A stretch of 32,792 nucleotides of DNA from an uncultured Bacteroides sp. (GTDB lineage: Bacteria > Bacteroidota > Bacteroidia > Bacteroidales > Bacteroidaceae), in the NCBI GenBank assembly GCA_949300425.1, contig CASGED010000139.1, forward strand, positions 1 to 32,792. Direction: 5' to 3'. Each line of letters starts with the position of its first letter. Within the stretch, counting starts at the first letter, position 1. A program made the position numbers and the translations under genes. Below, in pieces: positions 1,043 through 23,374 of this stretch. The notes beneath the pieces are model-generated. The model did not search any database and was not told the origin of the DNA. It saw nothing but the letters and a program-made list of their open reading frames with translations.

Positions 1043-1446
1043 AGGATGTACCTTTCACAGCATTCAATTCAAAATCAAGCGGTTGGGGATGCCGTGAAGG
1101 CGTGAAACTTACATCGGAGAGATTGGTGTAGAGGGTGAAACACACAGTCTTTCCGGTACAGACACGGCTTGTTATCAAGCGGCCAAATTACGTTTAATCA
1201 GAAGGCCGCTCCCATTTAATGGGACGGGACGGCACATTAAATGAGAAGTGATGGGAGATTAAATGATAATTCAGCGGGATGATTTCAGTCCCCCGAAGGG
1301 GTCTTTCGTGCTCATTTATCACATAAATTTAGAATGCGACAAAGAATTAAGAATAAAGTTTTGTTATTTGATCTATTTTTTGTAAATTGCGCACATAAAA
1401 AGTAATTATTTTACCTATAATTAACCAATTAATAATCTTGTGAACC
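1043..1446. other. Non-coding stretch with several short repeat families
   Basis: No supportable gene. GTGAAAC or CCGTGAAGG words recur at 1028-1034, 1037-1045, 1092-1100, 1102-1108 and 1135-1141. A second family follows: GTTTAAT 1192-1198, CCCATTTAATGGG (near-palindrome) 1211-1223, CATTAAATG 1235-1243 and GATTAAATGA 1257-1266. A small C5-GAA-G4 hairpin (1290-1301) followed by TCTTT could be a weak terminator for rightward transcription. The A/T-rich end (1321-1446) carries the promoter of the protease gene. The stretch looks like the junction of a mobile element or its remains. Confidence 0.55.
1359..1390 (+). promoter_or_regulatory. Candidate promoter of the protease-serpin operon
   Basis: TTTTG (1359-1363), then exactly 19 bases, then TAAATTGC (1383-1390). 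The -33 box and spacing fit the Bacteroides consensus; the -7 box is imperfect. The start of transcription would be near 1396, leaving a leader of about 50 bases before ATG 1447. No promoter is visible in the 39 bases between the two genes, so both are probably transcribed from here. Confidence 0.45.
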
Positions 1447-2751
1447 ATGAAAAAGTTTTTCTTGGGTGCAATATCGTTGCTGATAGCAAGCGCATGTACA
1501 AATGACGAGTATGTAATGGAAAACATTAGTAACTCTTCTACAGAGACTTGCATGACAAGAAGCATGAATGAAGTATTGCAGATTGCGAGCAATGCTACCC
1601 AACTTCTTCAGAATGCTAACACTCGATCGGTGACTCGTACCGTAGACCCGACTGCGACACAATATGTTATTGCTCCAAGTACCAGAAGTTCCGGAGGGAA
1701 TGATACCTTATTATATATAGTGAACTATGCGGATGGGCAAGGCTTTGCCGTGGTGGCAGCCAATAAGCAAGCAGAAGGACTGTTAGCGGTAGTCGAAAAA
1801 GGTTCATACGGAATGGATGGGGAATATTATACGGAAAATCCCGGATTTACAGTCTTTATGGAACAAGCTCAGGAGTATGCGAAAACACTATCGCTTAAGA
1901 CGGGAAATAATTCGGGTGGTGAATTAGTATTAACTGAACATAAATTGGTACGTGATACTACATATTTAAATAAAATAGAGCCAATGGTAAACGTACGTTG
2001 GGGACAAACTGGTATTGAAGGGAAATATTGCCCGAATAAAGTTGCGGGATGTTCGAATGTCGCAATGGCACAAATTATGTCTTATTTTCAATATCCTCTT
2101 AGTATAAATATTAATTATCCAGATGCTTCTGTAACATCGCAATATCTAAATTGGTCAGCTATCAAGGAACATGAAGTTGTTGATATATACCAAGAATGTA
2201 ATGCAACGTATGACACCCACGAGGCAATTAGCCAACTTTTGCGCCAATTAGGATATATGAATAATAGTTCTTATATAACAAATCCTAATAAAACTATGAC
2301 TTATGATAATAATGTAAGAATTAGTTTTTCTCAGTTAGGGTATAATGTCTCCAGTAGTTTAATTAGTTATAATAATCAAGATATAGAAACGCTTTTAGCT
2401 AATGGAAGTCTGTTATACATGCGAGGCAATCACAAAGATAAAGAAACTGGAGAAGAAATGGGACATGCATGGGTTGCGGATGGCATACATAAAGTAAGTG
2501 TTCATTCTACGGAATGGACTCGCCCGATGGGACAATTAGGCTGGACATTAACAATAGATTACGGAACTCAAACTACTGAATATTTGCATTATAATTGGGG
2601 ATGGGATGGTAATTGTAATGGTTTCTTCGTAGCAGGTATTTTCAATCCTAACAGCGGTAGTAACTATGACAACAATAAGAATTGGTTTTACCGCAATACT
2701 TCCGATTACAATTTCACAACAAGCATACAGTATTTTACTGTAAGTAGATAG
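1447..2751 (+). CDS. C10-family (streptopain-like) cysteine protease, lipoprotein
   Basis: 434 residues. A lipoprotein signal peptide ends in the lipobox IASAC, so Cys17 should be lipidated; the mature N-terminus CTNDEY has the acidic patch that marks surface lipoproteins in Bacteroidetes. Residues about 35-135 look like the Spi/propeptide domain of C10 zymogens (TLLYIVNYADGQGFAVVAANK). The catalytic domain follows, with nucleophile Cys202 in VAGCSNVAMAQIMSYFQYP, general base His340 in MGHAWVADG, and Asn383-Trp384 in HYNWGWDGNCNG. This is the full C10 set, so the enzyme should be active after removal of the propeptide. The domain from about 1900 on is visibly richer in A/T than the genes to the right, suggesting transfer. 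C10 enzymes (SpeB, Bfp of B. fragilis) cut host proteins and are often on mobile DNA with an inhibitor gene alongside; here that neighbour is a serpin. Confidence 0.9.
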   Translation: MKKFFLGAISLLIASACTNDEYVMENISNSSTETCMTRSMNEVLQIASNATQLLQNANTRSVTRTVDPTATQYVIAPSTRSSGGNDTLLYIVNYADGQGFAVVAANKQAEGLLAVVEKGSYGMDGEYYTENPGFTVFMEQAQEYAKTLSLKTGNNSGGELVLTEHKLVRDTTYLNKIEPMVNVRWGQTGIEGKYCPNKVAGCSNVAMAQIMSYFQYPLSININYPDASVTSQYLNWSAIKEHEVVDIYQECNATYDTHEAISQLLRQLGYMNNSSYITNPNKTMTYDNNVRISFSQLGYNVSSSLISYNNQDIETLLANGSLLYMRGNHKDKETGEEMGHAWVADGIHKVSVHSTEWTRPMGQLGWTLTIDYGTQTTEYLHYNWGWDGNCNGFFVAGIFNPNSGSNYDNNKNWFYRNTSDYNFTTSIQYFTVSR

Positions 2752-2790
2752 AGACAATACTCTTATCACTAATCATTAAATAGTAGAATT

Positions 2791-4032
2791 ATGAAAAAAT
2801 TAATGTTCGCATGTGCCGCTACGCTAAGTATGGTAGCGGCCTGCCAGAATGACGAAGGGGTAAACAACAAGGTACCGAAAGAGTACAAGCCCATTGAACT
2901 GACAGAAGCGCAAACCCGCATGGCTTCCGAGAGCACGGACTTCGCTTTTCGCTTTTTCCAAACAGCCAGTGAGGTATTGGGGAAAGAAGAACAGAACAAG
3001 AATAAGCTGATACTGTCGCCCGTCAGTGCATCGTATGCACTCTCCATGGCAGCCAACGGAGCAGAGGGGGCGACACTGACCGAACTGATCGAAGTGCTTG
3101 GCTTTTCCGGTTTCAGCATTGACGAAATCAACGCTTACAACCAAAAGTTGGTGCAGGAACTGGTGCAACAGGACAATACAACCCTGCTTAGCATGGCCAA
3201 CTCATTGTGGCTGTTAGATGATTTCCAAGTGCTAAGCACTTACCGGAATGCCTTGAAAAAGAACTACGATGCCGAGGTACGGAGAGAGGAACGAGCAAAA
3301 GCTAAAGATGCCATCAATGCTTGGTGTGCCGACAAAACGAACGGCTGCATTCCGGATTTTTTGAAAGATGACCCGGAAGGGAAAGCCCTGTTGCTGAATG
3401 CGCTTTACTTCAAAGGATTATGGGCAGAACCTTTTGATAAAGGTCTGACCCAGAACGAACTGTTTACCAACGAAGACGGTACGCAAACGGAAGTCGCCAT
3501 GTTGAACCGGCAATCCGGTTACTTACTTGCGCAAAACGACTTGTATGCCACGGTGCGCCTACCCTACGGTAATGGTGCGTTCGCCTTGCAGGTGATATTA
3601 CCGCAGGAAGGTGTGTCGTTGGCGCAATGTATCGAAGCCTTGAACGGTGCAAGTTGGAAAGCCTTGCAGGAAAGCATGATGTGGAAAGAAGTGGACGTGA
3701 AACTTCCTAAATTTACCATTGAAGATTACCAAAACAGCTTGATTAGGGTGCTGATGGCTATGGGCGTTCAAGAAGCGTTCCGTAATTCAGCCGATTTCAG
3801 TAAAATGGCGAATAAGGATTTGATGATAAGTTCCGTGGATCAATCTGTCTATTTCAGGCTGGATGAAGAAGGAACGGAAGCGGCTGCGGTAACAGGAATA
3901 GGAATGTCACAAGCGCTTCCCCAAAACCCCTATGGTGTGTATGAATTCCACGTTGACCGTCCTTTCCTCTTCCTGTTGACGGAGAAGAGCACGGATAGTG
4001 TACTGTTTATGGGGCAGGTTACGGGATTCTGA
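2791..4032 (+). CDS. Serpin-family protease inhibitor, lipoprotein
   Basis: 413 residues, full serpin length. The signal peptide ends in lipobox VAAC with lipidated Cys18; the mature start CQNDEG resembles that of the protease upstream. Serpin landmarks: LILSPVSASYALSMAANGA (s6B/hB), LLNALYFKGLWAEPF (s3A), and the C-terminal FHVDRPFLFLL. The reactive-centre hinge, residues 359-367 (EEGTEAAAV), fits the inhibitory consensus, so the protein should trap proteases by loop insertion. Counting as in alpha-1-antitrypsin, P17 is Glu359 and P1-P1' is Ala375-Leu376. Serpins usually inhibit serine proteases, though some inhibit cysteine proteases. The gene is 39 bases after the protease and most likely co-transcribed, which suggests control of the partner, protection of the producer from it, or defence against host proteases. 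It ends in tandem stops TGA TAA. Confidence 0.92.
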   Translation: MKKLMFACAATLSMVAACQNDEGVNNKVPKEYKPIELTEAQTRMASESTDFAFRFFQTASEVLGKEEQNKNKLILSPVSASYALSMAANGAEGATLTELIEVLGFSGFSIDEINAYNQKLVQELVQQDNTTLLSMANSLWLLDDFQVLSTYRNALKKNYDAEVRREERAKAKDAINAWCADKTNGCIPDFLKDDPEGKALLLNALYFKGLWAEPFDKGLTQNELFTNEDGTQTEVAMLNRQSGYLLAQNDLYATVRLPYGNGAFALQVILPQEGVSLAQCIEALNGASWKALQESMMWKEVDVKLPKFTIEDYQNSLIRVLMAMGVQEAFRNSADFSKMANKDLMISSVDQSVYFRLDEEGTEAAAVTGIGMSQALPQNPYGVYEFHVDRPFLFLLTEKSTDSVLFMGQVTGF

Positions 4033-4062
4033 TAATGTGTGCCCCTAAAAAGGAAATAAAAG

Positions 4063-4104
4063 AACCGCCTGCCTTCTGCGAATGTTCCGCAAAGACAGGC
4101 GGTT
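4063..4104 (-). terminator. Terminator between convergent serpin and aminotransferase genes
   Basis: AACCGCCTG (4063-4071) pairs perfectly with CAGGCGGTT (4096-4104), with a further short pairing inside the loop. Leftward transcripts leave the hairpin into a T-rich run (complement of 4045-4062), so it fits best as the terminator of the aminotransferase operon. It may also serve the serpin operon, although the sequence on that side is less T-rich. Confidence 0.7.
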
Positions 4105-4140
4105 GGTATATAAAACAGGAAAAGACTTCAAAAAGAGGTC

Positions 4141-5334
4141 TTACTTCAGGGCGGCCAAAGCCTCCTTGATGCGGCGGATGGCCTCAACAATGTTTTCATC
4201 GCTCGTGGCGTAACTCATGCGGATGCAGTCGGGCGCGCCGAAAGACGTACCGCCTACGCAAGCCACATGACCGACTTCAAGCAGATACATGGCCAGGTCG
4301 TCCGATGTATTGATGACACGGTCGCCGGCACGCTTACCGAAGTAGTAGCTGCATTTTGGGAAGAGGTAGAAGGCTCCTTCGGGCACGTTCACTTCCAGAC
4401 CGGGAACTTCCTTGGCTAACTTCACGATGAGGTCGCGGCGGCGTTGGAAGGCCTGACGCATTTCTTCCACCGGAACCTGGGTACCGGTGTAGGCAGCTTC
4501 GGCGGCTTTCTGCGATACGGAGCAGGGACCGGACGTGTATTGACCTTGCAGCTTGTTCACGCCTTTCACAATCCACTCGGGCGCGGCAATGAAACCAATG
4601 CGCCAGCCCGTCATGGCATACGCTTTGGACACGCCGTTGACAATAACCGTGCGCTCTTTCATCGCAGGAATCTGGGCAATGCTGTGATGACGGCCTATAT
4701 AATTAATGTGCTCGTAGATTTCATCGGCAATGACAATGACCTGCGGATGCTTCTCCAATACGGCGGCGAGGCCGGCCAATTCTTCGGCACTGTAGACGGA
4801 GCCGGTCGGGTTGGACGGAGAGCAAAGAATCAACGCTTTGGTCTTAGGCGTGATGGCGGCCTCCAGCTGGTCGGGCGTTATCTTGAAGTCTTGCTCGATG
4901 CCGGCGGTTACAATGACCGGTTTGCCTTCGGCCAACTTCACCATTTCCGGATAGCTCACCCAATAGGGAGCAGGCACGATGACTTCATCGCCCGGATTGA
5001 CAAGTGCCAAGATGGTGTTGCACACCGACTGCTTGGCACCGTTGGCACAGGAGATTTGAGCGGCTGTATAGTCCAGACCGTTTTCATTCTTCAGTTTCGC
5101 TACAATGGCGTTGCGCAACGCGGGATAACCGGCCACGGGCGAATAGCGCGAATAGTTTTCGTCGATGGCTTTCTTGGCCGCTTCTTTGATGTGGTCGGGC
5201 GTGTTGAAGTCCGGCTCACCCACACTCAGGTTAATTACATCCACGCCCTGTGCCTTCAGTTCGGCACTCTTTTGGGACATGGCCAGCGTCGCGGACGGCG
5301 ACAGGCTGTTCAAACGATCGGATAATTGGTTCAT
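4141..5334 (-). CDS. aspC: Class I aminotransferase, aspartate aminotransferase type
   Basis: 397 residues, a normal length for the subgroup Ib aspartate aminotransferases. PLP-binding residues are all visible: Asn175 in SPSNPTG, Asp204 and Tyr207 in ADEIYEH, the Schiff-base Lys237 in NGVSKAYAMTGWRIG, and Arg245 in the same motif. It should move the amino group between aspartate (or a related amino acid) and 2-oxoglutarate, in the cytoplasm. Exact substrate range cannot be read from sequence; related enzymes also act on prephenate or aromatic amino acids. It is the last gene of a leftward operon after the permease and ribBA, with a 40-base gap to ribBA that contains a duplicated 13-base sequence. 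Confidence 0.88.
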   Translation of the reverse strand: MNQLSDRLNSLSPSATLAMSQKSAELKAQGVDVINLSVGEPDFNTPDHIKEAAKKAIDENYSRYSPVAGYPALRNAIVAKLKNENGLDYTAAQISCANGAKQSVCNTILALVNPGDEVIVPAPYWVSYPEMVKLAEGKPVIVTAGIEQDFKITPDQLEAAITPKTKALILCSPSNPTGSVYSAEELAGLAAVLEKHPQVIVIADEIYEHINYIGRHHSIAQIPAMKERTVIVNGVSKAYAMTGWRIGFIAAPEWIVKGVNKLQGQYTSGPCSVSQKAAEAAYTGTQVPVEEMRQAFQRRRDLIVKLAKEVPGLEVNVPEGAFYLFPKCSYYFGKRAGDRVINTSDDLAMYLLEVGHVACVGGTSFGAPDCIRMSYATSDENIVEAIRRIKEALAALK

Positions 5335-11654: not shown

Positions 11655-12956
11655 CTACGTGAAACTGATAATTCCGTCCTCGCCGTCTTTGGTCTCATCG
11701 CCCGTGTACGCCTGGCGATCCCGCTCCGCCCGGTCACGTATGGCGTTCAGCGTAGCCTTGTCACGCAGGTAAGTCGGCGAGTTTTCCATCATGGACACGA
11801 CATCGGCATGATCGAGATCGGCGGAACTGAAGAGATAAAGGTGACGCCGACGGGTACGGTGCGCGCGCCCATTGGCATCGGGACCATAATAGCGCTCACG
11901 ACGCAGGCGACGACGTTCCTCCTCTTCGGCTTGTTGTTCCATCTCTTCTTCCGTACGGGCGGCCAAACGTTCATCCATTTCCTTCATGTGGATGTCCTGA
12001 ATGCCGAAACCGGTGGCAAGCAACGTGACTTTCACTTTGGATCCCAACGTCTCGTCACGCTCGACACCGTGTTTGGTAGTGATGTCACGGTTGAAGCGAT
12101 TCATGAACTCGGTCACTTCGTCCAGTTCGCTCATAATAAGTTCGCTCTCGGAACTGTAGGAAATGCAAATGACGACTTTCTTGGCATTAAACACGTTGTT
12201 CTCGTTGAGCAAAGGGGAATTCTGGGCATCATCGAAAGCCTTGGTCAGACGCCCTTCGCCTTCGCCGTAGCCGGTACCGATGATGGCCACGCCGCCGTCT
12301 TGAAGCACCATGCGGACATCGTTGAAGTCGAGGTTGATTTTGCCGTGCATGGTGATGATGTCCGAGATGCTCTTAGCGGCCACCAGAGCGACATCGTCGG
12401 CACGGGCATAGCCTTCTTCAAACTTCAGGTCTCCATATATTTTCAGTATATTATCGTTCTTTACCACGATAAGCGCGTCTACATAACGGCTTATTTCCTC
12501 TACGCCATCCAAGGCTTGGTCTATTTTGCGATCTGCCTCCCAACTATAAGGAATGGTCACGATGCCAACCGACAAGATGCCCATTTCCCGCGCGACTTTT
12601 GCCACAACGGGAGCGGCTCCGGTACCGGTACCTCCGCCCATACCGGCTGTAATAAAGACCATGCGGGTACCGTCATCAAGCTTTTCACGTATCTGGTCAA
12701 CGCAGGATTCCGCTTTTCTGCGCCCTTCCTCCGGATCGTTGCCCGCGCCTAAGCCTTCGCCTAACAAGAGTTTGTCACGTACAGGAGAATCGTTGACGGA
12801 TTTCATGTCGGTGTTACATACCATAAAAGAAACACCGTCGATGCCTTCGCGATACATGTGGCTGACGGCATTGCAACCGCCACCGCCTACACCGATGACT
12901 TTGATAATCCGGGGTATGTCTGTGGCGAATTTGAAGTCTTTGATTATTTCGTCCAT
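11655..12956 (-). CDS. ftsZ: Cell-division protein FtsZ
   Basis: 433 residues. GTPase core: GVGGGGCNAV at 22-31, the tubulin signature GGGTGTG at 107-113, and the T7 loop NLDFND at 208-213, whose aspartates act in GTP hydrolysis. Polymers form the Z ring at mid-cell. After the core (about residue 320) there is a charged linker rich in Glu and Arg. PTYLRD at 394-399 resembles the conserved C-terminal peptide that binds FtsA (PAFLRK in E. coli), but here it is followed by 34 more residues instead of ending the protein. Last gene of the dcw run, 57 bases after ftsA. Confidence 0.98.
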   Translation of the reverse strand: MDEIIKDFKFATDIPRIIKVIGVGGGGCNAVSHMYREGIDGVSFMVCNTDMKSVNDSPVRDKLLLGEGLGAGNDPEEGRRKAESCVDQIREKLDDGTRMVFITAGMGGGTGTGAAPVVAKVAREMGILSVGIVTIPYSWEADRKIDQALDGVEEISRYVDALIVVKNDNILKIYGDLKFEEGYARADDVALVAAKSISDIITMHGKINLDFNDVRMVLQDGGVAIIGTGYGEGEGRLTKAFDDAQNSPLLNENNVFNAKKVVICISYSSESELIMSELDEVTEFMNRFNRDITTKHGVERDETLGSKVKVTLLATGFGIQDIHMKEMDERLAARTEEEMEQQAEEEERRRLRRERYYGPDANGRAHRTRRRHLYLFSSADLDHADVVSMMENSPTYLRDKATLNAIRDRAERDRQAYTGDETKDGEDGIISFT

Positions 12957-12963
12957 CTTTCTA

Positions 12964-12984
12964 ATTTACTATTTACAATTTACA
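12964..12984. repeat. 7-base tandem repeat in the ftsZ leader
   Basis: ATTTACT, ATTTACA, ATTTACA lie head to tail, ending 8 bases before the ftsZ start codon (minus-strand units TGTAAAT). Confidence 0.7.
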
Positions 12985-13013
12985 ATCTAATTATTCACTA
13001 TCGGCACATTGAA

Positions 13014-14426
13014 TCAAGACATTTTCTCGTCATTGTCGCCGAAGAGTTCTTCCGTGACGTTGCCCGCCAAGCGCTGGAACCAATTGGGCTTGCCGTCTTT
13101 CTCCTTTTTCTTTTTCTTCTCTTCCTCTTTACGACGTTTTTCTTCTTCTTTACGACGCCGGTCTTCTTCCTCTTTCTTGCGGCGGTTCTCTTCTTCCTGC
13201 GCTTTCAAATCCTCATCGTCACGGAACATGTCAACCGGTTTCCCCGGCTCGATGTGAGGGATTTTCGGCTCTTCCGGCTGGCGACAATCTTCCTTGCCCG
13301 CTAAGAGCAAAGCCAGGAGGGTGTTCCGTGTGCCATCCTGCGGCATTTCCGTCTGATAGCCGCGAACAGTATCTTGCACAAAGCGTGCCGTGCGGATTTT
13401 CCTCTGCTTACTCAGCCGGAGCAGGGCTTCGTCTATGTGGCGCAGATTGGAGGCACCGCCCGTCAGAACGATGCCGGCCAATAGCTTGTCCTCGTAACCT
13501 GAGAGCTTAATTTGATTCCATACGTTGGCTAAGATTTCCTCAGCACGTGCGCCGACGACATCGTTCAGTTCGCTCAACCGAATCGGACGCCCGTCTTCTG
13601 TCATCACCGTGGTGGATGCTTCACCGTCTTCAGTCTCTTCCTGATAGAGGGCGTCGCCGTAGTGCAGTTTCAACCGTTCGGCTTCGTCTTCTTCCAATTG
13701 CAGGCTGGTGATGTCGCGCGTGATGTTGCTTCCTCCCAAAGGCAGGACGCAAAGGTAGCGCAAGAGGTTGTTTTTATACACCATGACAGTAGTGGTGTCC
13801 GCGCCCAAGTCGACAAGTGCGCAGCCTGAGCGCAATTCAGTTTCTGTCAGCACAGCGTGAGCCAAACACAGAGGAGCGGTCAGCAAATCAGCGATTTCCG
13901 TCTTCGCCTGGGAGAAACTCATTTCAAGATTCTTCTTGAGTGACGGGGACGCCACGATATTCAGGAACTTGCCCGTAACAGATGTGCCGGTGACACCTAC
14001 AGGGTCGGCATACAAGTGGTTGTCTATTTCATATTCCTGCGGAACTACCTCCAGGATATCCATGTTGACAATCGGATAGGTCAGGTTCTCATCGTTCATG
14101 CTGTCTATCAGCTCCTGAGAGATGACTTCCGTGTCCGACATCCGGCCTATCTTGTTCACAACCGTGCGCATGGACTGTCCGCCGATGCCTACATACACTT
14201 TAGCAATCGTACACTTCAGCTGTTCTTCCAGCTTGTTGACGATGGATGTCAGTCCTTGAGCGGCTTTCCCTATGTTGTAAACGGTTCCCTTGCGGACAAA
14301 GGAGGCCGAGGGTTCTGTGGCGTAAGCCAATATCTGCATGCTGCCATCACTGTTTCGATGCCCGGCAATGCCGGACAACTTTGACGAGCTCAGCTCAATA
14401 GCGGCTATAAAATCTGTTGTTGCCAT
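13014..14426 (-). CDS. ftsA: Cell-division protein FtsA
   Basis: 470 residues, actin-like ATPase that ties FtsZ to the membrane. Visible parts: phosphate-1 loop region FIAAIELSSSKLSGIAG at the N-terminus, LVDLGADTTTVMVY (phosphate 2), and GIVLTGGASNLRHID (adenosine). After the actin fold comes an unusually long basic/acidic stretch of Arg-Lys-Glu repeats (roughly residues 405-450), then NWFQRLAGNVTEELFG, a likely amphipathic membrane-binding helix. The charged spacer makes it some 50 residues longer than E. coli FtsA. It lies between ftsQ and ftsZ, as usual. Confidence 0.97.
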   Translation of the reverse strand: MATTDFIAAIELSSSKLSGIAGHRNSDGSMQILAYATEPSASFVRKGTVYNIGKAAQGLTSIVNKLEEQLKCTIAKVYVGIGGQSMRTVVNKIGRMSDTEVISQELIDSMNDENLTYPIVNMDILEVVPQEYEIDNHLYADPVGVTGTSVTGKFLNIVASPSLKKNLEMSFSQAKTEIADLLTAPLCLAHAVLTETELRSGCALVDLGADTTTVMVYKNNLLRYLCVLPLGGSNITRDITSLQLEEDEAERLKLHYGDALYQEETEDGEASTTVMTEDGRPIRLSELNDVVGARAEEILANVWNQIKLSGYEDKLLAGIVLTGGASNLRHIDEALLRLSKQRKIRTARFVQDTVRGYQTEMPQDGTRNTLLALLLAGKEDCRQPEEPKIPHIEPGKPVDMFRDDEDLKAQEEENRRKKEEEDRRRKEEEKRRKEEEKKKKKEKDGKPNWFQRLAGNVTEELFGDNDEKMS

Positions 14427-14432
14427 ATTTTT

Positions 14433-14460
14433 ATTTACTATTAACCAATTACAATTTACA
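14433..14460. repeat. 7-base tandem repeat in the ftsA leader
   Basis: Four imperfect 7-base units (ATTTACT, ATTAACC, AATTACA, ATTTACA) end 6 bases before the ftsA start codon. Confidence 0.55.
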
Positions 14461-14479
14461 TATACTTATAATGTGTCTG

Positions 14480-15217
14480 TCAATCTATTCGGGTACAGAT
14501 GATTTGGTTGCTAAACTCTACGTTGATGCGTCCGTATTTGTTCCATCCTACCTTGTTCAGTGCCTTGCGGTAGAACTTCTTAACGCGGCTCAACTTCCGT
14601 TCATAATCTTCCGCTTTTCCCAAATAGATAATATGGTCACCTACACGAGGAACCAGCTCGATGGAACGGTCGGGCAGGACATGTATTTGTTCTATCTGGG
14701 CTTCCCAAAACGGGTCATTCTGTAGGTACATGCCGAACGGGTATAAACCGGAAACGGCAAACGTCTTGTCAATGAAACCTGTGGCCAATGGTACCAAGGC
14801 CGTACATTTGGCATCGGAGGGCATGACAGTTCCCTTATTGTCCAAATAGTAATTCTCGCCCCGACTGTTGATGACGTGCAGGATGGGGATGCGCTGAGTG
14901 ACTTCTACGCATATCTTGTGGCTGGGCGTCTTATAGCACTCCACACGGTCAATAAGTGGCTGGGTGGCTAATGCTTCTTCTAATTCAGCGGTGCGTATCT
15001 CGTCCATATTCTTTCCTACCGGATTGAGTTTCTTCTTCGTAAGGATAGCAGCTATCTCCTTGGTCGTGACAAAACCGGCGTAGGCCGTGTCTTTGATTAC
15101 CAACTCAATATCGGTGCAAGTAGCTCCGGCCGGCTTCCGGTTGAAGGCGGTGATTGCTACCAGCAGATAAGCGGTAATGAGCAGCAGGACGATGGTCAGT
15201 AGAATTTTCTTCAGCAT
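14480..15217 (-). CDS. ftsQ: Cell-division protein FtsQ (POTRA domain)
   Basis: 245 residues. A single membrane helix (about 5-25) is followed by a periplasmic POTRA-like domain (CTDIELVIKDTAYAGFVTTKEI, about 34-100) and a beta domain with VEVTQRIPILHVINSRGENYYLDNKG, the typical FtsQ/DivIB core. The protein links the cytoplasmic division ring with FtsL and FtsI outside. Sequence conservation in this family is low, so position between murC and ftsA supports the call. 12 bases separate it from murC. Confidence 0.9.
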   Translation of the reverse strand: MLKKILLTIVLLLITAYLLVAITAFNRKPAGATCTDIELVIKDTAYAGFVTTKEIAAILTKKKLNPVGKNMDEIRTAELEEALATQPLIDRVECYKTPSHKICVEVTQRIPILHVINSRGENYYLDNKGTVMPSDAKCTALVPLATGFIDKTFAVSGLYPFGMYLQNDPFWEAQIEQIHVLPDRSIELVPRVGDHIIYLGKAEDYERKLSRVKKFYRKALNKVGWNKYGRINVEFSNQIICTRID

Positions 15218-15229
15218 GATGACAACACG

Positions 15230-16648
15230 TTAAGTGGTTTCACAAGAAGCGTCATTCTTCAAGCGCTTTTGTAGCAGCTGGGTGATTGCAGGCGCGTAGT
15301 TGTCCAGGTCGCCCGCTCCTAGCACGATCAACACTTCCACCGGCTTGCGGGCGAGGAGATTCAGCACGTCTTCTTTCCGGCAGAGTGTCTTCTCAATGCC
15401 CGGGCGCAAGTGGTCATATATCAGTTGGCTGGTTACACCGGGGATGGGTTGTTCGCGCGCCGGATATATCTCCGTCAAGATGACTTCGTCCAGCAGGGAA
15501 AGGCTGTCAGCAAACTCCTGATAGAAGTCACGGGTACGAGTGTACAAGTGAGGTTGGAAAATGCCGGTCAGTTTCCTGTCGTTATACAACTCGCGCATGG
15601 AGCGGACGCATTGGGCTATCTCGGCCGGATGATGGGCGTAGTCGCTGAGAAAGACGATACGGTCGGTCTTCAACTTGAAATCGAACCTGCGGTCAACACC
15701 ACGGAAGCTATCCATGCCACGGCGGATTTCTTCATCGGTCGCTCCATTCAGATGGGCCAATGCCATAGCCGCCACTCCATTCTCGATGTTAATGCTGACG
15801 GGCACACCCAAACGGATGTCGTTAATGCGTGCATCGGGAGCTACGAAGTCAATGTAGATTTCACCGCCGCCGATACGTATGTTCTCTGCATGGAAGTCAC
15901 CTTCATCCCGACTATACGTGTAGACACGGACGCCGGTTTGTACATCGGGTTGCAGACTTAATCCTGTATGCAGAATCAAAGCTCCCCCCGGTTGAATCAG
16001 GGAAGTGTAGTGACGAAAACTCTCCAAATAAGCTTCGTAAGTGCCGTAGATGTCGAGGTGGTCGGGGTCTGTAGCCGTAATGACACTCATATAAGGCGAC
16101 AACTGGTGGAAGGAACGGTCGAACTCATCGGCCTCAATCACCGTGTAGGGGCTGTCTTGCGAAAGCAACAGGTTGGTGCCGTAGTTCTTGGAGATGCCTC
16201 CTAAGAAAGCGGTGCATCCTATGGCCGACTGATGCAGTAGGTGAGCCGTCAGGGTGCTGGTTGTGGTCTTGCCATGGGTACCGGCCACACAAAGCGCTTT
16301 GCTGCTGCGGGTGATGAGCCCCAATACCTGAGCACGTTTGTGCACTTCAAAGCCGTGCTCGCGGAAGTAGACAAGTTCGACATGCGTAGCGGGTACGGCG
16401 GGTGTATAGACTACTAACGTGGTGGCCGGATTCTTGCATTCGTCAGGAATTAGGGCGACATCCTCCTCGTAATGTATTTGCGCTCCTTCGGCCATGAGGC
16501 GTGCGGTCAGTTCGCTGGGCGTACGGTCATAGCCGGCCACCCGCTTCCCTTTCGAAAGGAAGTAGCGCACCAACGCACTCATGCCGATGCCACCGGCACC
16601 TACGAAATATACGGATTGTATAGTATGTATCTCCATTGTTTCTTTCAT
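15230..16648 (-). CDS. murC: UDP-N-acetylmuramate--L-alanine ligase
   Basis: 472 residues. Mur ligase three-domain layout: N-terminal UDP-binding motif VYFVGAGGIGMSALVRYF at about 13-30, ATP-binding loop GTHGKTTTSTLTAHLL, EADEFDRSF, and the C-terminal YAHHPAEI. It adds L-alanine to UDP-MurNAc in the cytoplasm, the first amino acid of the peptide stem. The ATG at 16648 is 4 bases from the murG stop; an ATG four codons on (MEIHTIQS) is an equally possible start. Confidence 0.97.
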   Translation of the reverse strand: MKETMEIHTIQSVYFVGAGGIGMSALVRYFLSKGKRVAGYDRTPSELTARLMAEGAQIHYEEDVALIPDECKNPATTLVVYTPAVPATHVELVYFREHGFEVHKRAQVLGLITRSSKALCVAGTHGKTTTSTLTAHLLHQSAIGCTAFLGGISKNYGTNLLLSQDSPYTVIEADEFDRSFHQLSPYMSVITATDPDHLDIYGTYEAYLESFRHYTSLIQPGGALILHTGLSLQPDVQTGVRVYTYSRDEGDFHAENIRIGGGEIYIDFVAPDARINDIRLGVPVSINIENGVAAMALAHLNGATDEEIRRGMDSFRGVDRRFDFKLKTDRIVFLSDYAHHPAEIAQCVRSMRELYNDRKLTGIFQPHLYTRTRDFYQEFADSLSLLDEVILTEIYPAREQPIPGVTSQLIYDHLRPGIEKTLCRKEDVLNLLARKPVEVLIVLGAGDLDNYAPAITQLLQKRLKNDASCETT

Positions 16649-16652
16649 CTCA

Positions 16653-17819
16653 TTATCTGTTATCTATCAGTTTTAATACTTCTTCGGCAATGTCGCGGGC
16701 GGCGTTCGGACGAGCCAGCCGACTGATGTTGTTTCTTAGCTCAGCCAGCTTCTCATTATCAGCTAATGCTTCCAGTGCGACATTCAACAGACAATCCTTG
16801 GCTTCGGCATCCTTTACGCAAAGGGCAGCATGCTTCTCCACCAAGGCTAAGGCGTTCTTCGTCTGATGGTCTTCGGCCACATTGGGTGAAGGCACTAAGA
16901 TACAAGGCTTTCCCAACAGGCAAAGTTCGGAAATGGAACCGGCTCCGGCGCGCGAGATGACCAAATCGGCCAAGGCATAGGCGCAGTCCATGTGTTTGAT
17001 AAAATCGGTCACATACAGGTTGGGCAAACTGCTGACGCGAGAACTCCGCACCGGTTCTCCCGTAAAAGTGGTAATGGCCTCCTTCACCTGGTCGATGTAA
17101 ATCTTGCCCGTCTGCCAAATGAACTGCACATCCGGATGAGCCTTGATGAGCGGCAAGCCCGCCATCAGCGTCTGGTTGATGGTGCGCGCCCCCAAGCTAC
17201 CCCCTATGACGAGGACGGTCTTCTTATTTGCATCAAAGCCGAAGAATTTGGCAGCTTCTTCACGATTGGTTGAATCGGTAAGCAATGCTTGACGCACAGG
17301 ATTGCCGGTCTGCACAATGCGGTCGGCAGGAAAGAAACGTTCCATTCCGTCGTAAGCCACGCAAATGCGCGAAGCTTTCTTTGCCAGCAGTTTATTGGTG
17401 ACCCCGGCGTAAGAGTTTTGTTCTTGTATCAAAGTGGGAATGCCCATCATGGATGCAGTCTTCAACGTAGGGCCACTGGCATAGCCGCCCACGCCCACCG
17501 CCACCTGCGGACGGAAGCCGCGGATGATTTTGCGGGCTTTCCATTGGCTGCGCAATAATTTCAGGATTACCGCAAAGTTCTTCCACAAGTGTTGGCGGTC
17601 GAATCCGGCTACGGGCAATCCGATGATGCGATAGCCTGCATCGGGCACACGTTGCATTTCCATGCGCCCCTCCGCACCGACAAAAAGAATCTCGGCTTGC
17701 GGACGAAGCTCGCGGATGGCATTGGCAATGGAGATGGCCGGAAAGATGTGTCCTCCGGTTCCTCCGCCACTGATGATGACGCGCGGCTTCGTGTTTTTAT
17801 TGCTCACGTTCTCTTTCAT
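16653..17819 (-). CDS. murG: UDP-GlcNAc:lipid I transferase MurG
   Basis: 388 residues, GT28 glycosyltransferase. The N-terminal glycine-rich loop is SGGGTGGHIFPAISIANA at about 18-35; VGVGGYASGP and LIQEQNSYAGVTN follow, and the C-terminal domain has VIGGSLGARTINQ and LVISRAGAGSISELCLLGKPCILVPSP, where the donor binds. It adds GlcNAc to lipid I at the inner face of the membrane to give lipid II. Located between ftsW and murC in the usual order, with a 20-base gap to ftsW. Confidence 0.98.
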   Translation of the reverse strand: MKENVSNKNTKPRVIISGGGTGGHIFPAISIANAIRELRPQAEILFVGAEGRMEMQRVPDAGYRIIGLPVAGFDRQHLWKNFAVILKLLRSQWKARKIIRGFRPQVAVGVGGYASGPTLKTASMMGIPTLIQEQNSYAGVTNKLLAKKASRICVAYDGMERFFPADRIVQTGNPVRQALLTDSTNREEAAKFFGFDANKKTVLVIGGSLGARTINQTLMAGLPLIKAHPDVQFIWQTGKIYIDQVKEAITTFTGEPVRSSRVSSLPNLYVTDFIKHMDCAYALADLVISRAGAGSISELCLLGKPCILVPSPNVAEDHQTKNALALVEKHAALCVKDAEAKDCLLNVALEALADNEKLAELRNNISRLARPNAARDIAEEVLKLIDNR

Positions 17820-17839
17820 GCTATTGTTCTTTATATCGT

Positions 17840-19153
17840 TTATTTAAATTCACTATCACTATTCAGCAGGGGCGATGTCGGCTCGGCTGCCACTTCACTC
17901 TCGGGAGGAGGAGGAACGTCAGGCATGTTCATCGGCTCGGCTTGAACCGCCAACAATGCGGCATCCTGTTTCTGCTGTTCTTCCAATTTGGCGGTATAGC
18001 GGCTCACACTCAGTATCATGCCGATGTAGGCGCAATTGATGAATGTCGATGTTCCGCCTTTGCTGATAAGTGGCAAAGGCTGACCCGTAACGGGCGCCAA
18101 TCCCACGGCCACCATCATGTTGAACAACGCTTGCGTGACCAGCAGCAAAGCGATGCCTATCACCAGAAAGGCCGGGAACGTCCGGTCGCACTTGCAGGCT
18201 ATCCGTCCTGCTTGAATCAGCAGCCAAATATAAAGAAAAACTACGATAATACCACCAATAAGTCCCAATTCTTCAATGATTATGGCATAAATAAAGTCCG
18301 AATAGGCTTGGCTGAGGAAATCGCGTTGCACGGAGTTGCCCGGTCCTTTGCCTAAGACATGGCTCGTAGCCACCGCTATACGGGCATGAGCCACCTGGGC
18401 ATCCCCGTCGATGTCGAACTTAGCAGGCGGCACTTCCTTGGCATAGGCAAAGTCGGCGATGCGCGCCTTTACGGTGGTGAAGCGGTGTCCCATGGGGATT
18501 TTCTCCAGCGTTTCATTGGGTGTAGCCAAGAGGAATGCCACAAACAAAGCGGCCGCTCCCGCCAGTCCTCCACCCAACAACACCAACTTCCGCGTCTGCA
18601 CCCGCCCGATAATCATCATCAGGAAAACGGTGCCGAATAACAAAACACCGGTGGAATAATTCTCCGGAAGGATTAGTCCGCAGACAATACAGGTCATAAT
18701 CATAATGCGCTTGAAAGCCTTGGGCGAAGCTCCGTGTTCATCTTGGCCCCTCGAAAGAATGACCGCCGTACCCATAATTACTCCCATCTTGGCCAACTCT
18801 GACGGTTGAAATTGGATACCCATGAACGTCATCCAACGTGCCGCCCCATTGATGCGGTCGCCCGTAACGAAACCTGTAATCATGACAAAAGCCAACAACA
18901 CGACCGACACCAACAACAACGGATAAGGAAACATCTGAAACCATTTGTAGGGTATGTTGTGTACCAGCACCACAATCAGTGCTCCGATGGAGAGCAGGAT
19001 GGTGTGTTGGGTGATGGGTCCCCAATGGTCGCCGCTCTTGTAGGTCAGCGTGGAAGCTGCCGAGAACACCTCTATAATAGAGATGAGACAGAGCGCCAGG
19101 AAGATAATCCATATCACTTTGTTGCCTTTAAATATGCTGCGTAGTAAATCCAC
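17840..19153 (-). CDS. ftsW: Septal peptidoglycan polymerase FtsW (SEDS family)
   Basis: 437 residues with about ten membrane segments. SEDS signatures: LAFVMITGFVTGDRINGAARWM, the GHRFTTVKARIADF loop, SDFIYAIIIEELGLIGG, and near the end VTGQPLPLISKGGTSTFINCAYIGMILSVSR. It polymerises glycan strands at the septum together with the FtsI transpeptidase encoded upstream. The start codon is GTG (19151-19153), directly after a 7-base tandem repeat. A Pro/Glu-rich cytoplasmic tail of about 35 residues ends the protein. Confidence 0.97.
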   Translation of the reverse strand: MDLLRSIFKGNKVIWIIFLALCLISIIEVFSAASTLTYKSGDHWGPITQHTILLSIGALIVVLVHNIPYKWFQMFPYPLLLVSVVLLAFVMITGFVTGDRINGAARWMTFMGIQFQPSELAKMGVIMGTAVILSRGQDEHGASPKAFKRIMIMTCIVCGLILPENYSTGVLLFGTVFLMMIIGRVQTRKLVLLGGGLAGAAALFVAFLLATPNETLEKIPMGHRFTTVKARIADFAYAKEVPPAKFDIDGDAQVAHARIAVATSHVLGKGPGNSVQRDFLSQAYSDFIYAIIIEELGLIGGIIVVFLYIWLLIQAGRIACKCDRTFPAFLVIGIALLLVTQALFNMMVAVGLAPVTGQPLPLISKGGTSTFINCAYIGMILSVSRYTAKLEEQQKQDAALLAVQAEPMNMPDVPPPPESEVAAEPTSPLLNSDSEFK

Positions 19154-19158
19154 TTTTC

Positions 19159-19186
19159 TAATGGTTAATGGTTAATGATTAATGGG
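19159..19186. repeat. 7-base tandem repeat in the ftsW leader
   Basis: TAATGGT, TAATGGT, TAATGAT, TAATGGG: four head-to-tail units filling the gap between the murD stop codon and the ftsW start. Confidence 0.75.
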
Positions 19187-19187
19187 G

Positions 19188-20522
19188 TTATAAAGCTCTC
19201 ACGCATTCCTTGAACTGGTCGCCCCGGTCTTCGTAACTCTTGAAAAGGTCAAACGAGGCGCAACAGGGACTTAGTAACACGGTCTCGCCTTTCTTCGCCA
19301 AACGGTAGGCAGCGTCCACCGCATCCTTCATGCCCGTCTGCACATCGGCCACGGGCAAGCCCAAGCGGTCGAAGAAATCGTGCAGCTTTTCGTTGTGCAG
19401 ACCTAAGTAAACCAAAGCGGAGCACTTTTGGCGCACCAAATCTTCTATCTCGCTATAGTCATTCCCTTTGTCCTTTCCCCCTAAGATAAGCACCACCTTG
19501 GTGGTCATGCTCTGTAAGGCATACCAACAGGAATTGACGTTGGTGGCTTTCGAGTCGTTGATGAAATGCACGCCTCGCACATCGCATACCCGCTCCAGCC
19601 GATGGGGAACGCCCTGAAAGTCGCTCAACGCCTTGCGAATATCTTCGTTTTTGACGCCTGCCAAGTTGGCCGATATGCCCGCCGCCAACGAGTTATAAAG
19701 GTTATGCGTGCCACGCAAGGCCAATTCTTCCTGCTCCATGTTGAAAGCGATGGGCGTATTGATTTCCACTTCTCCGTCCTCCACGTAAGCGATGGCTCCG
19801 TCTTCTTTGACAGCGGAGAAAGGATAAAGATGCGCCTTCAGTCCGTGTTTGGCCAATTCGCGACGGATGATGGGATCATCGTTCCAAAAGATGAAAGCAT
19901 CGTCCGGAGTCTGATTTTGCGTGATGCGGAACTTGGCATCCACATAGTTCTGCATGCAATGGTCGTAACGGTCTAAATGGTCAGGCGTGATGTTCATCAG
20001 CACGGCTATGTTGGCGCGGAAGTCATACATGTTGTCCAATTGAAAGGAACTAAGTTCGATAACGTAATAATCGTGCTGCTCGGTGGCCACTTGCAGCGCG
20101 AGACTGTTGCCAATGTTACCGGCTAGCCCCACGTTCTTCCCGGCACTCTTCAAGATGTGATAGATGAGCGAGGTGGTGGTCGTCTTGCCGTTGGAACCGG
20201 TGATACATATCATCATGGCGCTCGTATAGCGTCCTGCGAACTCTATTTCGGAGATAATAGGCGTACCTTGCGCCTTGAGTTTCAGGATTAACGGAGCGTC
20301 ATTGGGAATGCCGGGGCTTTTGATGACTTCATCGGCATTCAGAATCTTCGTTTCCGTATGTCCATTCTCTTCCCAAGGAATGTCATAATGTTCCAGCAGT
20401 TCTTTGTACTTGCTTTTAATGGCTCCCATGTCAGAAACAAAGGTGTCAAAGCCTTTCACTTTAGCCAGTACAGCGGCTCCCGCACCGCTCTCTCCTGCAC
20501 CTAAAACAACAATTCTCTTCAT
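19188..20522 (-). CDS. murD: UDP-MurNAc-L-Ala--D-glutamate ligase
   Basis: 444 residues. N-terminal Rossmann-like VVLGAGESGAGAAVLAK, ATP loop ITGSNGKTTTTSLIYHIL, the MNITPDHLDRY motif, FINDSKATNVNSCWYAL and the C-terminal LLSPCCASFDLFKSYEDRG mark it as MurD. It adds D-glutamate to UDP-MurNAc-L-Ala in the cytoplasm. It sits 25 bases after mraY and ends at the repeat before ftsW. Confidence 0.97.
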   Translation of the reverse strand: MKRIVVLGAGESGAGAAVLAKVKGFDTFVSDMGAIKSKYKELLEHYDIPWEENGHTETKILNADEVIKSPGIPNDAPLILKLKAQGTPIISEIEFAGRYTSAMMICITGSNGKTTTTSLIYHILKSAGKNVGLAGNIGNSLALQVATEQHDYYVIELSSFQLDNMYDFRANIAVLMNITPDHLDRYDHCMQNYVDAKFRITQNQTPDDAFIFWNDDPIIRRELAKHGLKAHLYPFSAVKEDGAIAYVEDGEVEINTPIAFNMEQEELALRGTHNLYNSLAAGISANLAGVKNEDIRKALSDFQGVPHRLERVCDVRGVHFINDSKATNVNSCWYALQSMTTKVVLILGGKDKGNDYSEIEDLVRQKCSALVYLGLHNEKLHDFFDRLGLPVADVQTGMKDAVDAAYRLAKKGETVLLSPCCASFDLFKSYEDRGDQFKECVRAL

Positions 20523-20547
20523 CCTATATTCTATTTAATAAGTTCTT

Positions 20548-21816
20548 TTATCTAATCTTCAATGTTATAATGGTTATCGCTGCCAGTATGATAGTGATAA
20601 TCCAGAAACGGACGGTTATCTTAGACTCGTGGAACAGTTGGTCGGGCTTGGTGAACACAACCCTGCATCCCGGTTCCACCAGGTTCATACTCGTGCGGAA
20701 GTGGTCGTGTATGGGCGTACGCTTGAAGAGACGTTGTTTCACTCCGCGCCGTTTGCCCGCCTTGTAGTAGACCCGTTGCAGAATGACCGACAAATTCTCC
20801 ACCAGGAACACGCCGCACAGGATGGGTATGAGCAACTCTTTGTGGATGATGATGGCCAGCACGGCGATGATGCCGCCGATGGTCAGACTGCCCGTATCAC
20901 CCATGAACACTTGTGCCGGATAAGCGTTGTACCACAGGAAGCCGATGAGCGCACCGATGAACGCACAGACAAAGACCACCAGCTCCTGCGAGCCGGGGAT
21001 GTACATGATGTTCAAGTAACCGGCATACTCAATGTGGCTGGAAACGTAAGCCAGTATACCAAGCGTAACGCCCATGATGGCAGAGTTTCCTGCCGCCATG
21101 CCGTCCATGCCGTCGTTCAGGTTGGCACCGTTGCTCACGGCCGTCACTACGAAGATGGTCACTAACACGAAGAGTATCCAGCCGGCCGTCTGCGCATGTT
21201 CGCCCAGAAAGCCCATGATGTCAGCATAGTCCAAGTTGTTGCTCTTGAAGAAAGGAATGGTGGTTTGTGTCGCTTTGATTTCCTTGGCGGCATGCACTAC
21301 CTCGATTTGCCCATTGGGGCGTTCTACCTCAATGTTCTCGCGAATGACCACTTGCGGACTAAGGTATAACGTAAGGCCCACAATCAGTCCCAAACCCACC
21401 TGTCCTATAATCTTAAACTTGCCGTGCAGTCCCTCCTTGTCCCGCTTGAATATCTTGATATAGTCGTCGGCAAATCCCAATGAACCGAGCCACACGATGG
21501 TGATGAGCATCAATATCATATAGATGTTACCCAACCGTCCTAACAGCAGGCAGGGAATCAGCGTAGCGAATATAATGATGACTCCCCCCATGCTGGGCAC
21601 ACCCACTTTCTTCACGCCAAAGGGGTCGATGGAAGCGTCACGCTGGGTCTCGGTGATTTGTTTTCTCTTCAACAGATTGATGAAACGGTCGCCCCATATC
21701 GTCGAGATAAGCAGCGCCAGAATGACTGCCACCAACGCCCTGAACGAAGTGTAGGCAAACATGCCTGCACCTGGGAAATCGTATTGATCAAGCCAACGGA
21801 ATAAATAGTATAACAT
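20548..21816 (-). CDS. mraY: Phospho-MurNAc-pentapeptide transferase MraY
   Basis: 422 residues with about ten membrane helices. Catalytic motifs: PSMGGVIIIFATL, GFADDYIKIF with the paired aspartates, NGANLNDGMDGMAAGN, and the C-terminal FKRTPIHDHFRTSMNLVEPG. It forms lipid I from UDP-MurNAc-pentapeptide and undecaprenyl phosphate. It is about 60 residues longer than E. coli MraY, mainly through a polar insertion (VIRENIEVERPNGQIE and on, about residues 156-200) between membrane segments, which I take to be a Bacteroidetes trait. Confidence 0.97.
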   Translation of the reverse strand: MLYYLFRWLDQYDFPGAGMFAYTSFRALVAVILALLISTIWGDRFINLLKRKQITETQRDASIDPFGVKKVGVPSMGGVIIIFATLIPCLLLGRLGNIYMILMLITIVWLGSLGFADDYIKIFKRDKEGLHGKFKIIGQVGLGLIVGLTLYLSPQVVIRENIEVERPNGQIEVVHAAKEIKATQTTIPFFKSNNLDYADIMGFLGEHAQTAGWILFVLVTIFVVTAVSNGANLNDGMDGMAAGNSAIMGVTLGILAYVSSHIEYAGYLNIMYIPGSQELVVFVCAFIGALIGFLWYNAYPAQVFMGDTGSLTIGGIIAVLAIIIHKELLIPILCGVFLVENLSVILQRVYYKAGKRRGVKQRLFKRTPIHDHFRTSMNLVEPGCRVVFTKPDQLFHESKITVRFWIITIILAAITIITLKIR

Positions 21817-21823
21817 CTTTCTA

Positions 21824-21858
21824 ATTTACGGTTTACTAAATTACTAATTTACGATTTA
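21824..21858. repeat. 7-base-period repeat in the mraY leader
   Basis: ATTTACG, GTTTACT, AAATTACT, then ATTTACG and ATTTAT fill the gap between the murE stop and the mraY start (minus-strand units CGTAAAT). Confidence 0.6.
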
Positions 21859-23331
21859 TCAGCTTACGGAACTGGCTATCTGGTTCTTGGTAAATGCAAT
21901 AGCTTCTTCTTTGTCATCGAAGTGATGTTTCACTCCTTTTATTTCCTGATAGCTCTCATGTCCCTTGCCAGCTATGAGCACCACATCTCCTTTCTGGGCC
22001 ATCATGCAAGCGGCACGGATGGCTTCGCGACGGTCGGCGATACTCAATGTTTTCTGCATATCGTTAGAATCGAGTCCAGCCAGCATATCGTTGATGATGT
22101 CCTGCGGCTCTTCAAAACGAGGATTGTCGCTGGTGATGATGAGGCGGTCACTTTGGCGCGCGGCTTCCTTGGCCATAAGGGGACGTTTGCCTTTATCGCG
22201 GTTGCCTCCGGCTCCCACCACGGTAATGACTTTACCTTTGCCTTCCAGCACGTCGTGAATAGCGTTCAGCACATTAGTCAGCGCATCGGGCGTGTGGGCA
22301 TAATCTATGATAATTGTAAAGCCTTTTGGTGAGCGAACAGTGTCCAAGCGTCCTGCCACCGGGCGCAAAGTGCTGAGTGCGACCAACACATCTTCTTCTT
22401 TTTTGCCTAACAGCACTGCGGCCCCAAATACGGCCAAGAGGTTGGAAGCGTTGAAACGTCCGATGAACTGCACGGCCACTTCATGATTATTGAAGTCGAG
22501 CAACATGCCTTCAAAATGGGATTCCAACACTTTCCCTTTGAAGTCGGCTAAGCTGCGCAAGGAATAGGTGCAGACCTTTGCACGGGAATTTTGCGCCATC
22601 ACCATTCCGTTCTTATCATCCAAGTTGGTCAGAAAGAAGGCACTTTTAGGCAAGTCATCGAAGAATCTTTTCTTGGCGCGCAAGTAATTCTCCACGGTTT
22701 TATGATAGTCTAAATGGTCGCGCGTCAGATTGGTAAAGATACCTCCGGCAAAACGCAGCCCGCTAATGCGCTTTTGGGCAACGGCGTGCGAGCTTACCTC
22801 CATGAAGGCGTACTTGCAGCCCTCATCGGCCATCTGCCCTAATAAACGATTCAATGTGATGGGGTCGGGCGTAGTATGTTCGGTAGGGACGGGCTTATCA
22901 TCAATATAGTTACACACTGTGGATATCAATCCTACCTTATAGCCGAAATAACGGAATATATTATATAATAAGGTGGCGATAGTGGTTTTCCCGTTAGTGC
23001 CCGTCACGCCTACCAATTCCATCTTCGAAGTAGGGTCACCGTAAAATGCGGTGGCTACTTTCCCGGCGGCGTCTTCACTATCCTTTACCTGTATATAGGT
23101 CACATGGTCTTGCAATGACTCCGGGAAATCTTCGCAAAGGATAGCAATAGCACCTTTGCCAAGAGCTGCGGGGATATAAACATGCCCATCAGCCTGTGTT
23201 CCCCGCATGGCTATGAACAGATTGCCAGTCTCCACTTGACGAGAGTCGATGTTGATGCCGGTTATTTCAATATCCGTACTTCCAACGACCTGTATCGGAT
23301 GTACGGCTTTTAATAATTCGTTCAGTTTCAT
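21859..23331 (-). CDS. murE: UDP-MurNAc-L-Ala-D-Glu--2,6-diaminopimelate ligase
   Basis: 490 residues from ATG 23331 ([12 protein letters not shown]); an ATG five codons upstream at 23346 is also open. Mur ligase motifs: [33 protein letters not shown] and DYAHTPDAL. The specificity loop reads DNPR (in [11 protein letters not shown]), the form found in enzymes that add meso-diaminopimelate rather than lysine, so this organism should have DAP-type peptidoglycan. It is flanked by ftsI and mraY; murF, often next, is absent here. Confidence 0.96.
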
Positions 23332-23374
23332 ATTGTCATTTACCATTTTACTGATTTATAATCGAATTTTACTA

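Follow-up and report, generated by a model that had tools for sequence, protein, structure and literature searches.

Described systems of proteases with adjacent partner genes

Several C10 (streptopain-type) cysteine proteases are encoded beside a gene for a partner protein. In Streptococcus pyogenes, the protease SpeB has an adjacent partner gene coding for Spi, which is reported to be an analogue of the protease propeptide (PMC2873492). In Bacteroides fragilis and Bacteroides thetaiotaomicron, genes for the staphostatin-like inhibitors Bfi and Bti are reported to be co-transcribed with C10 genes (PMC2873492, PMC3462683), and the Bacteroides partners are described as lacking significant identity both to Spi and to propeptides (PMC2873492). 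Here we analyze a stretch of 32,792 nucleotides from an uncultured Bacteroides sp. (GCA_949300425.1, contig CASGED010000139.1, positions 1 to 32,792; hereafter the window), in which a C10 protease gene is directly followed by a gene for a serpin. Protease genes with a neighbouring partner or inhibitor gene are already known; a repeatedly recruited serpin in that place appears to be a variation on this arrangement.

As in the C10 protease-inhibitor operons, the partner in the window is directly adjacent on the same strand, at 39 bp. The window pair also shares with Bfp-Bfi and Btp-Bti the placing of a C10 gene beside an exported, often lipoprotein, partner in the same genus. The Bfi partners are, however, reported to be staphostatin-like proteins of 116-138 amino acids (aa) encoded before or after the protease, whereas the window partner is a 413-aa serpin encoded after it, which places it outside the class of small staphostatin-like proteins. 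The initial annotation of this DNA held that inhibitors encoded beside C10 genes resemble the propeptide, and this does not agree with what is described for the Bacteroides partners. The pair also differs from SpeB and Spi, since the Spi-type I69 domain of the window belongs to the protease itself, as its propeptide, and a serpin takes the role of partner.

Tannerella forsythia offers a further comparison in its KLIKK proteases, which belong to the metallo- and serine classes and are not C10 enzymes. Like the window protease, they are secreted and have a small lipoprotein encoded beside them; these lipoproteins, the potempins, are mutually dissimilar and are said, on the basis of data still to be published, to inhibit the protease with which they are coexpressed (PMC7296668, PMC4404884). 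Potempin genes precede the protease gene, unlike the window serpin, and no serpin is described among them in the available text of these articles (PMC4404884, PMC7296668). Miropin, a serpin of T. forsythia and by sequence the closest solved relative of the window serpin (5NCS, E 8e-62), is reported to inhibit serine and cysteine proteases and to block neutrophil elastase, cathepsin G and plasmin. The available text does not describe it as paired with a C10 protease, and reports a reactive loop that is identical across strains (PMC7296668), unlike the variable loops of the serpins examined below. The word “serpin” is absent from the main text of PMC2873492 and PMC3462683, and no description of a C10-serpin gene pair was found in the open-licence literature, the only scope searched, in agreement with the statement of the initial annotation that no such pairing was known.

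The protease-serpin locus

The two genes and their parts are as follows.

1447..2751, + strand, C10 (streptopain-type) cysteine protease gene, 434 aa, zymogen lipoprotein (open reading frame (ORF) and Pfam)
1447..1497, + strand, lipoprotein signal peptide of the C10 protease, ending IASA-C (Cys17) and followed by TNDEY (lipobox pattern match and by eye)
1558..1878, + strand, I69 (Spi-type) propeptide domain, residues 38-144 (PF13734, 45 bits, cut-off 25)
2017..2628, + strand, C10 catalytic domain, residues 191-394 (PF01640, 88 bits, cut-off 26, and alignments)
2752..2790, + strand, intergenic gap of 39 bp from stop to start, without promoter-like or terminator-like site
2791..4032, + strand, serpin gene, 413 aa, lipoprotein with residues 48-411 as the Serpin domain (PF00079, 310 bits, cut-off 27)
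2791..2844, + strand, lipoprotein signal peptide of the serpin, ending MVAA-C (Cys18) and followed by QNDEG (pattern match)
3865..3957, + strand, hinge and reactive centre loop of the serpin, residues 359-389 (alignments)

Pfam and alignments bear out the initial annotation of a complete C10 protease with the active-site residues Cys202, His340, Asn383 and Trp384, as well as of a complete serpin with an inhibitory hinge 39 bases on. The closest solved relatives of the protease by sequence are SpeB (1PVJ) and interpain A (3BB7), at E ~1e-5. The serpin domain is full-length (model positions 3-368 of 370), and its hinge, EEGTEAAAVT (residues 359-368), follows the strict canonical inhibitory pattern. 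The G+C content is 37% for the protease gene and 48% for the serpin gene. The source genome (3.34 Mb, 142 contigs, 83.6% complete), of which the window is contig C139, holds two C10 and two serpin genes by Pfam.

Acidic residues after the lipobox Cys are typical of Bacteroides lipoprotein export signals, and the lipobox and the acidic residues behind it suggest that both proteins are surface-located. When positions 1200-4200 were scanned for promoter-like and terminator-like sites, none was found inside the 39-bp gap; from this gap, and from the overlapping frames in some relatives, we infer that the two genes form one operon. A Bacteroides-type promoter motif, TANNTTTG, gave 2 matches in locus L002 compared to 3.5 expected by chance and was rejected as evidence.

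The catalytic residues of the protease are conserved. Across 14 C10 proteins with a serpin downstream (set A1), Cys202, His340 and Asn383 do not vary and Trp384 is almost invariant, and among 43 pooled C10 proteins of this kind Cys202 is kept in 42 (with one gap), His340 in 43, Asn383 in 42 and Trp384 in 42. The same residues are also kept in 78 to 82 of 85 C10 proteins without a serpin. Judging from these residues, the serpin-paired C10 proteases look active.

Recurrence of the pair in Bacteroidales

We inspected the serpin neighbourhoods of 149 genomes of the genus for a C10 gene directly before the serpin on the same strand. Serpin matches were present in 63 genomes and C10 matches in at least 86, and the pair was found in 16, the window’s own genome included; this count contains G038, with a broken serpin ~190 bp away, and G109, with a frame-split serpin and a C10 gene cut by the contig start. 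For 16 of the 81 serpin rows the nearest upstream same-strand ORF was a C10 protease, and the next non-serpin neighbour cluster had 3 members. The recurrence of the pair in 16 of 149 genomes, together with C10 being the commonest non-serpin upstream neighbour, suggests that pairing occurs more than by chance. Among the 80 full-length serpins of the genus examined, 17 were paired with C10, 58 had no visible C10 (3 of them with <600 bp of upstream sequence) and 5 could not be assigned; short serpin fragments (e.g., in G003, G011, G029, G043, G065, G067 and G101) were left out.

Pair counts beyond the genus are lower bounds. Among the matches listed for 301 family genomes from outside the genus, direct pairs were found in G229, G396 and G353; in G151 the serpin is truncated at the end of the contig and separated from the C10 gene by two genes, of which one scores just under the cut-off for a barrel protein. 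In a profile scan of named genomes with the C10 clade, the best 80 of 332 confirmed relatives were kept as loci, and 33 of the 85 short-class C10 ORFs in these loci have a serpin downstream, 31 of them by the pair rule and 2 by eye (L181, with the serpin ~200 bp on, and L208, with overlapping longest frames). The titles of the named loci include Bacteroides, Bacteroidaceae, Prevotella, Muribaculaceae, Duncaniella, Porphyromonadaceae and Candidatus Equimonas, and many of the loci are metagenome assemblies from rumen, rectum, colon or caecum. The pair is thus conserved well beyond one strain, which was the check that the initial annotation had called for. In the 41 measured pairs, for which the C10-first order and the common strand were part of the pair rule, the gap between the two genes ranges from -4 to 189 bp with a median of 36. 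In 4 of these pairs the longest frames share 4 bases, although the true serpin starts may be further in.

A set of large-class C10 genes (most coding for 800-900 aa, some for ~600 aa) served as a control, in which a serpin was found in 0 of 30 loci; this control is weak because 23 of the 30 loci end at the 3' end of the gene. The only reverse-order case seen is a serpin just upstream, on the same strand, of a large-class C10 gene with an 831-aa frame (G500:C32:18478-20925). Scanning viral contigs with the window C10 returned 10 pattern stretches and no relative, so no phage link was found. Among 72,556 plasmid records, 7 match C10 and 107 match the serpin (87 of these from Rhizobium), all at <60% identity. 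Two of the plasmid C10 regions were inspected; H1 is without a serpin in its stretch, and the stretch of H2 ends inside the C10 gene.

The partner slot behind short C10 genes

The position directly behind the short C10 genes, which we call the slot, holds a variety of proteins. For 128 distinct short-class C10 ORFs, drawn from loci chosen around serpins or via profiles built from paired C10 proteins and therefore biased as a sample, the slot contains a serpin in 43, another lipobox protein in 58 and another ORF in 14, with nothing in range in 11 and a contig end in 2. The lipobox test is a lenient text pattern, which the barrel protein of L150 passes, and the class of other ORFs includes sure non-partners, among them an ORF resembling a transposase (L234) and additional C10 genes (L235). 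Of the 11 cases in which the slot is empty within range, three are in loci that run out within 200 bp (L145, L152 and L164), and in a fourth, L073, a broken serpin follows at ~190 bp. The C10 ORFs were filtered at 225-600 aa and >=80 bits in the first set and at 200-620 aa and >=50 bits in the named loci; identical sequences were dropped from the counts, as were 12 loci that either duplicate the window or were replaced by a longer stretch of the same locus.

The 71 distinct non-serpin slot ORFs fall into 43 phmmer clusters, and only that of L163, an outer-membrane barrel, reached the curated Pfam cut-off among the 20 scanned. One slot lipoprotein that was modelled has an all-beta fold; its best structural match is 2MW1, a solved B. 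thetaiotaomicron protein of the same family, and its second match is a cysteine-protease inhibitor, at a score not clear of unrelated folds. By its position and by precedent, the place behind the short C10 genes may be read as an inhibitor slot.

Barrel-like small outer-membrane proteins occur in the neighbourhood of several of these genes. In L135 one lies between C10 and serpin and scores just under the Pfam cut-off, in L163 and, by kinship to L163, in L150 they directly follow the C10 gene, and in L069 one lies between two serpins. Homologues of 2MW1 are encoded by single or tandem lipoprotein genes in L248, L251 and L250 (G000:C125), with no C10 gene in the stretch seen, and one in L255 sits directly after a C10 gene, in parallel to the solo and paired serpins. 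Some slot serpins have long frames with N-terminal extensions, i.e., L204 7264-9276 (671 aa) and L206 7251-8903 (551 aa).

Exchange of the slot protein

Quick trees of the C10 proteins and of the serpins, each with one support value and several long branches flagged, and with solo serpins from one genus only, were used to follow the slot label. On the C10 tree of 124 rows (43 serpin, 77 other and 4 not assignable), the serpin label needs 19 changes, at least 11 of which are forced by starred branches. On the serpin tree of 110 rows (45 paired, 58 solo and 7 not assignable), the paired label needs 15 changes, at least 7 of them forced. As a pattern, the label changes on both trees indicate that serpins have repeatedly entered, or been lost from, the slot. 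The distances between C10 proteins and between their slot serpins are correlated across 42 pairs (Mantel r 0.60, a value reached in 0 of 2000 permutations), and the nearest neighbours match for 21 of the 42, which suggests that many pairs also travel together.

Two related loci capture such an exchange. L213 (6001-8768) and L216 (6001-8767) are 90.6% identical in DNA over 3.9 kb through the C10 gene, with a break at the serpin start; the C10 proteins are 89% identical and the serpins only ~42%, and homology resumes past the serpins. This difference is best read as the replacement of a whole serpin beside a conserved C10 gene. In L213 the serpin is followed by a lipoprotein related to the slot proteins of other loci.

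Origin and reactive loop of the window serpin

The window C10 groups with serpin-paired C10 proteins, and the window serpin nests among solo serpins, with Shimodaira-Hasegawa-like approximate likelihood ratio test (SH-aLRT) values of 99-100. Its nearest kin are one solo serpin in G038 and one in its own genome (88% identity). DNA homology to these solo copies begins 22 bp ahead of the start codon and stops at about the stop codon, whereas between the two solo copies themselves it reaches further into the flanks. Most simply, a stand-alone serpin would have been inserted as a bare ORF behind the C10 gene; on parsimony only, the nesting among solo serpins makes the solo-to-slot direction the one that needs fewer events than slot-to-solo.

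The reactive loop diverges more than the body of the protein. Compared to the G038 copy, the window serpin is 90% identical in the body and 41% in the loop, and compared to the solo copy of its own genome 87% and 50%, respectively, while solo pairs at 80-90% body identity average 63% loop identity (21 pairs). The columns that separate the paired copy from both solo copies make up 8 of 21 in the loop versus 16 of 374 in the body (Fisher p 7e-6), and the loop region is, besides one indel region and the 3' end, the low point of DNA identity to the solo copies. Positive selection on the loop was considered and dropped, since the loop is rich in synonymous changes as well and the outgroups, read by eye, assign about half of the replacements to the solo branch; we therefore claim loop divergence and not selection.

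Proposed function of the slot serpin

We propose, at a probability of roughly 0.45, that the window serpin is a surface-anchored inhibitor of its partner C10 protease, like the Bfi/Bti and potempin neighbours. The serpin sits where related C10 proteases carry other small partner proteins, and thus may be the safety catch of the protease. Also in favor of this reading are the recurrence of the pair, the label changes on both trees, the intact catalytic residues of the proteases, the correlated distances of C10 and slot serpin, and the divergent loop of the window serpin. The sequence itself provides the starting point, in which the genes for a zymogen C10 protease and a serpin adjoin and each product carries a lipoprotein-type signal. 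Both proteins would reach the outer surface, where the propeptide would be cut off and the active protease would leave its lipid anchor. The anchored serpin could then catch C10 molecules that threaten its own surface or sister cells, either by cleavage-triggered loop insertion or, in members with an altered hinge, by slower substrate-like trapping. The slot itself would be open to exchange, as the pattern on the trees indicates, with solo serpins and other lipoproteins entering in turn as the protease stays.

A number of observations weigh against an inhibitor dedicated to its neighbour. Of the 21 slot serpins in the genus-and-family set, 7 follow the strict hinge pattern, versus 51 of 58 solo serpins, a comparison of related rows for which a Fisher test is not fair; in set A6 the pattern is present in 16 of 33 slot serpins. 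The hinge is lost in the second serpin of L125 (4469-5761) and in the serpin of L205 (3353-4588), which are probably not classical inhibitors. A loop or P1 motif shared across the slot serpins was sought by eye and none was found, and the dissimilar serpins of L213 and L216 beside nearly the same C10 protease fit badly with a finely matched inhibitor. The Mantel correlation would also follow from co-inheritance alone. The 88% identical solo serpin of the window’s own genome has no C10 gene beside it, and outgroup polarisation by eye places several of the loop differences on the solo branch. Finally, an order-wide draw of 198 genomes from 150 genera shows the pair in only 2 genomes among the matches listed, with G532 as the one further pair.

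Some of these observations would be accommodated if the two proteins were directed outward, with the protease cutting host or competitor proteins and the serpin blocking host or competitor proteases without acting on its partner; co-expression would then be explained by both proteins serving the same situation. Solo serpins are indeed common (matches in 63 of 149 genomes, and 58 of 80 full-length serpins without a C10 neighbour), the loop diversity between pairs and the difference between L213 and L216 fit a changing outside target, and miropin is reported to act on enzymes of this kind, i.e., those named above. We regard this outward role as the main rival but as less likely than inhibition of the partner, as it leaves unexplained why a serpin repeatedly takes the position where other C10 genes carry unrelated lipoproteins. 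If instead any slot protein served the protease as a chaperone, export partner or docking protein, for which the serpin scaffold had been co-opted, the great diversity of the slot (43 clusters from 71 non-serpin ORFs, and 1 of 20 reaching a Pfam cut-off) and the loss of the hinge in some slot serpins would be expected. The strict canonical hinge, however, is kept in the window serpin and in roughly half of the set A6 slot serpins, and the published neighbours of this type that we found are described, in the text available, as inhibitors, which makes such a role quite unlikely.

Least of all do we favor an accident of genome structure, in which serpin and C10 genes, both being mobile lipoprotein genes, would often land side by side without any functional link. 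The apparent movement of the window serpin as a bare ORF, with homology from -22 to the stop codon only, and the frequent label changes on both trees are in its favor; but the C10 gene stands first on the same strand at a median gap of 36 bp across the 41 pairs (-4 to 189 bp, order and strand being part of the rule), and the pair recurs under several family names. The interpretation given in the initial annotation is partly supported, in that the pairing, its conservation and the slot position hold, and either of the two roles that it offered, suicide inhibition of the partner or joint action of the two proteins, may apply. A broader and more speculative extension, which we consider unlikely as it stands, is that the short lipoprotein C10 proteases of Bacteroidales form a polymorphic protease-immunity system, in which the protease would act on neighbours or hosts and the slot would hold an exchangeable immunity protein, with stand-alone genes for serpins, Ig-fold lipoproteins and barrel proteins each having supplied it many times and their products having been redirected against the partner.

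In the literature available, bacterial serpins are mostly treated as a defence against the proteases of the host, and the natural target is known for few of them. Dozens of Bacteroidales genomes with a serpin gene directly behind one kind of protease gene now point to a named candidate target. If inhibition of the partner is true, bacteria would employ serpins to keep a cysteine protease of their own in check, and the difficulty of classifying the neighbours of these C10 genes would be explained by a slot open to unrelated scaffolds.

Other features of the window

Upstream of the pair, positions 427-756 contain an ORF with a weak, sub-cut-off match to the front of an AAA ATPase domain, apparently a broken remnant. 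A cell-division and cell-wall (fts/mur) cluster occupies positions 11655-25495 on the minus strand, and the protease-serpin pair lies outside it, near one contig end.

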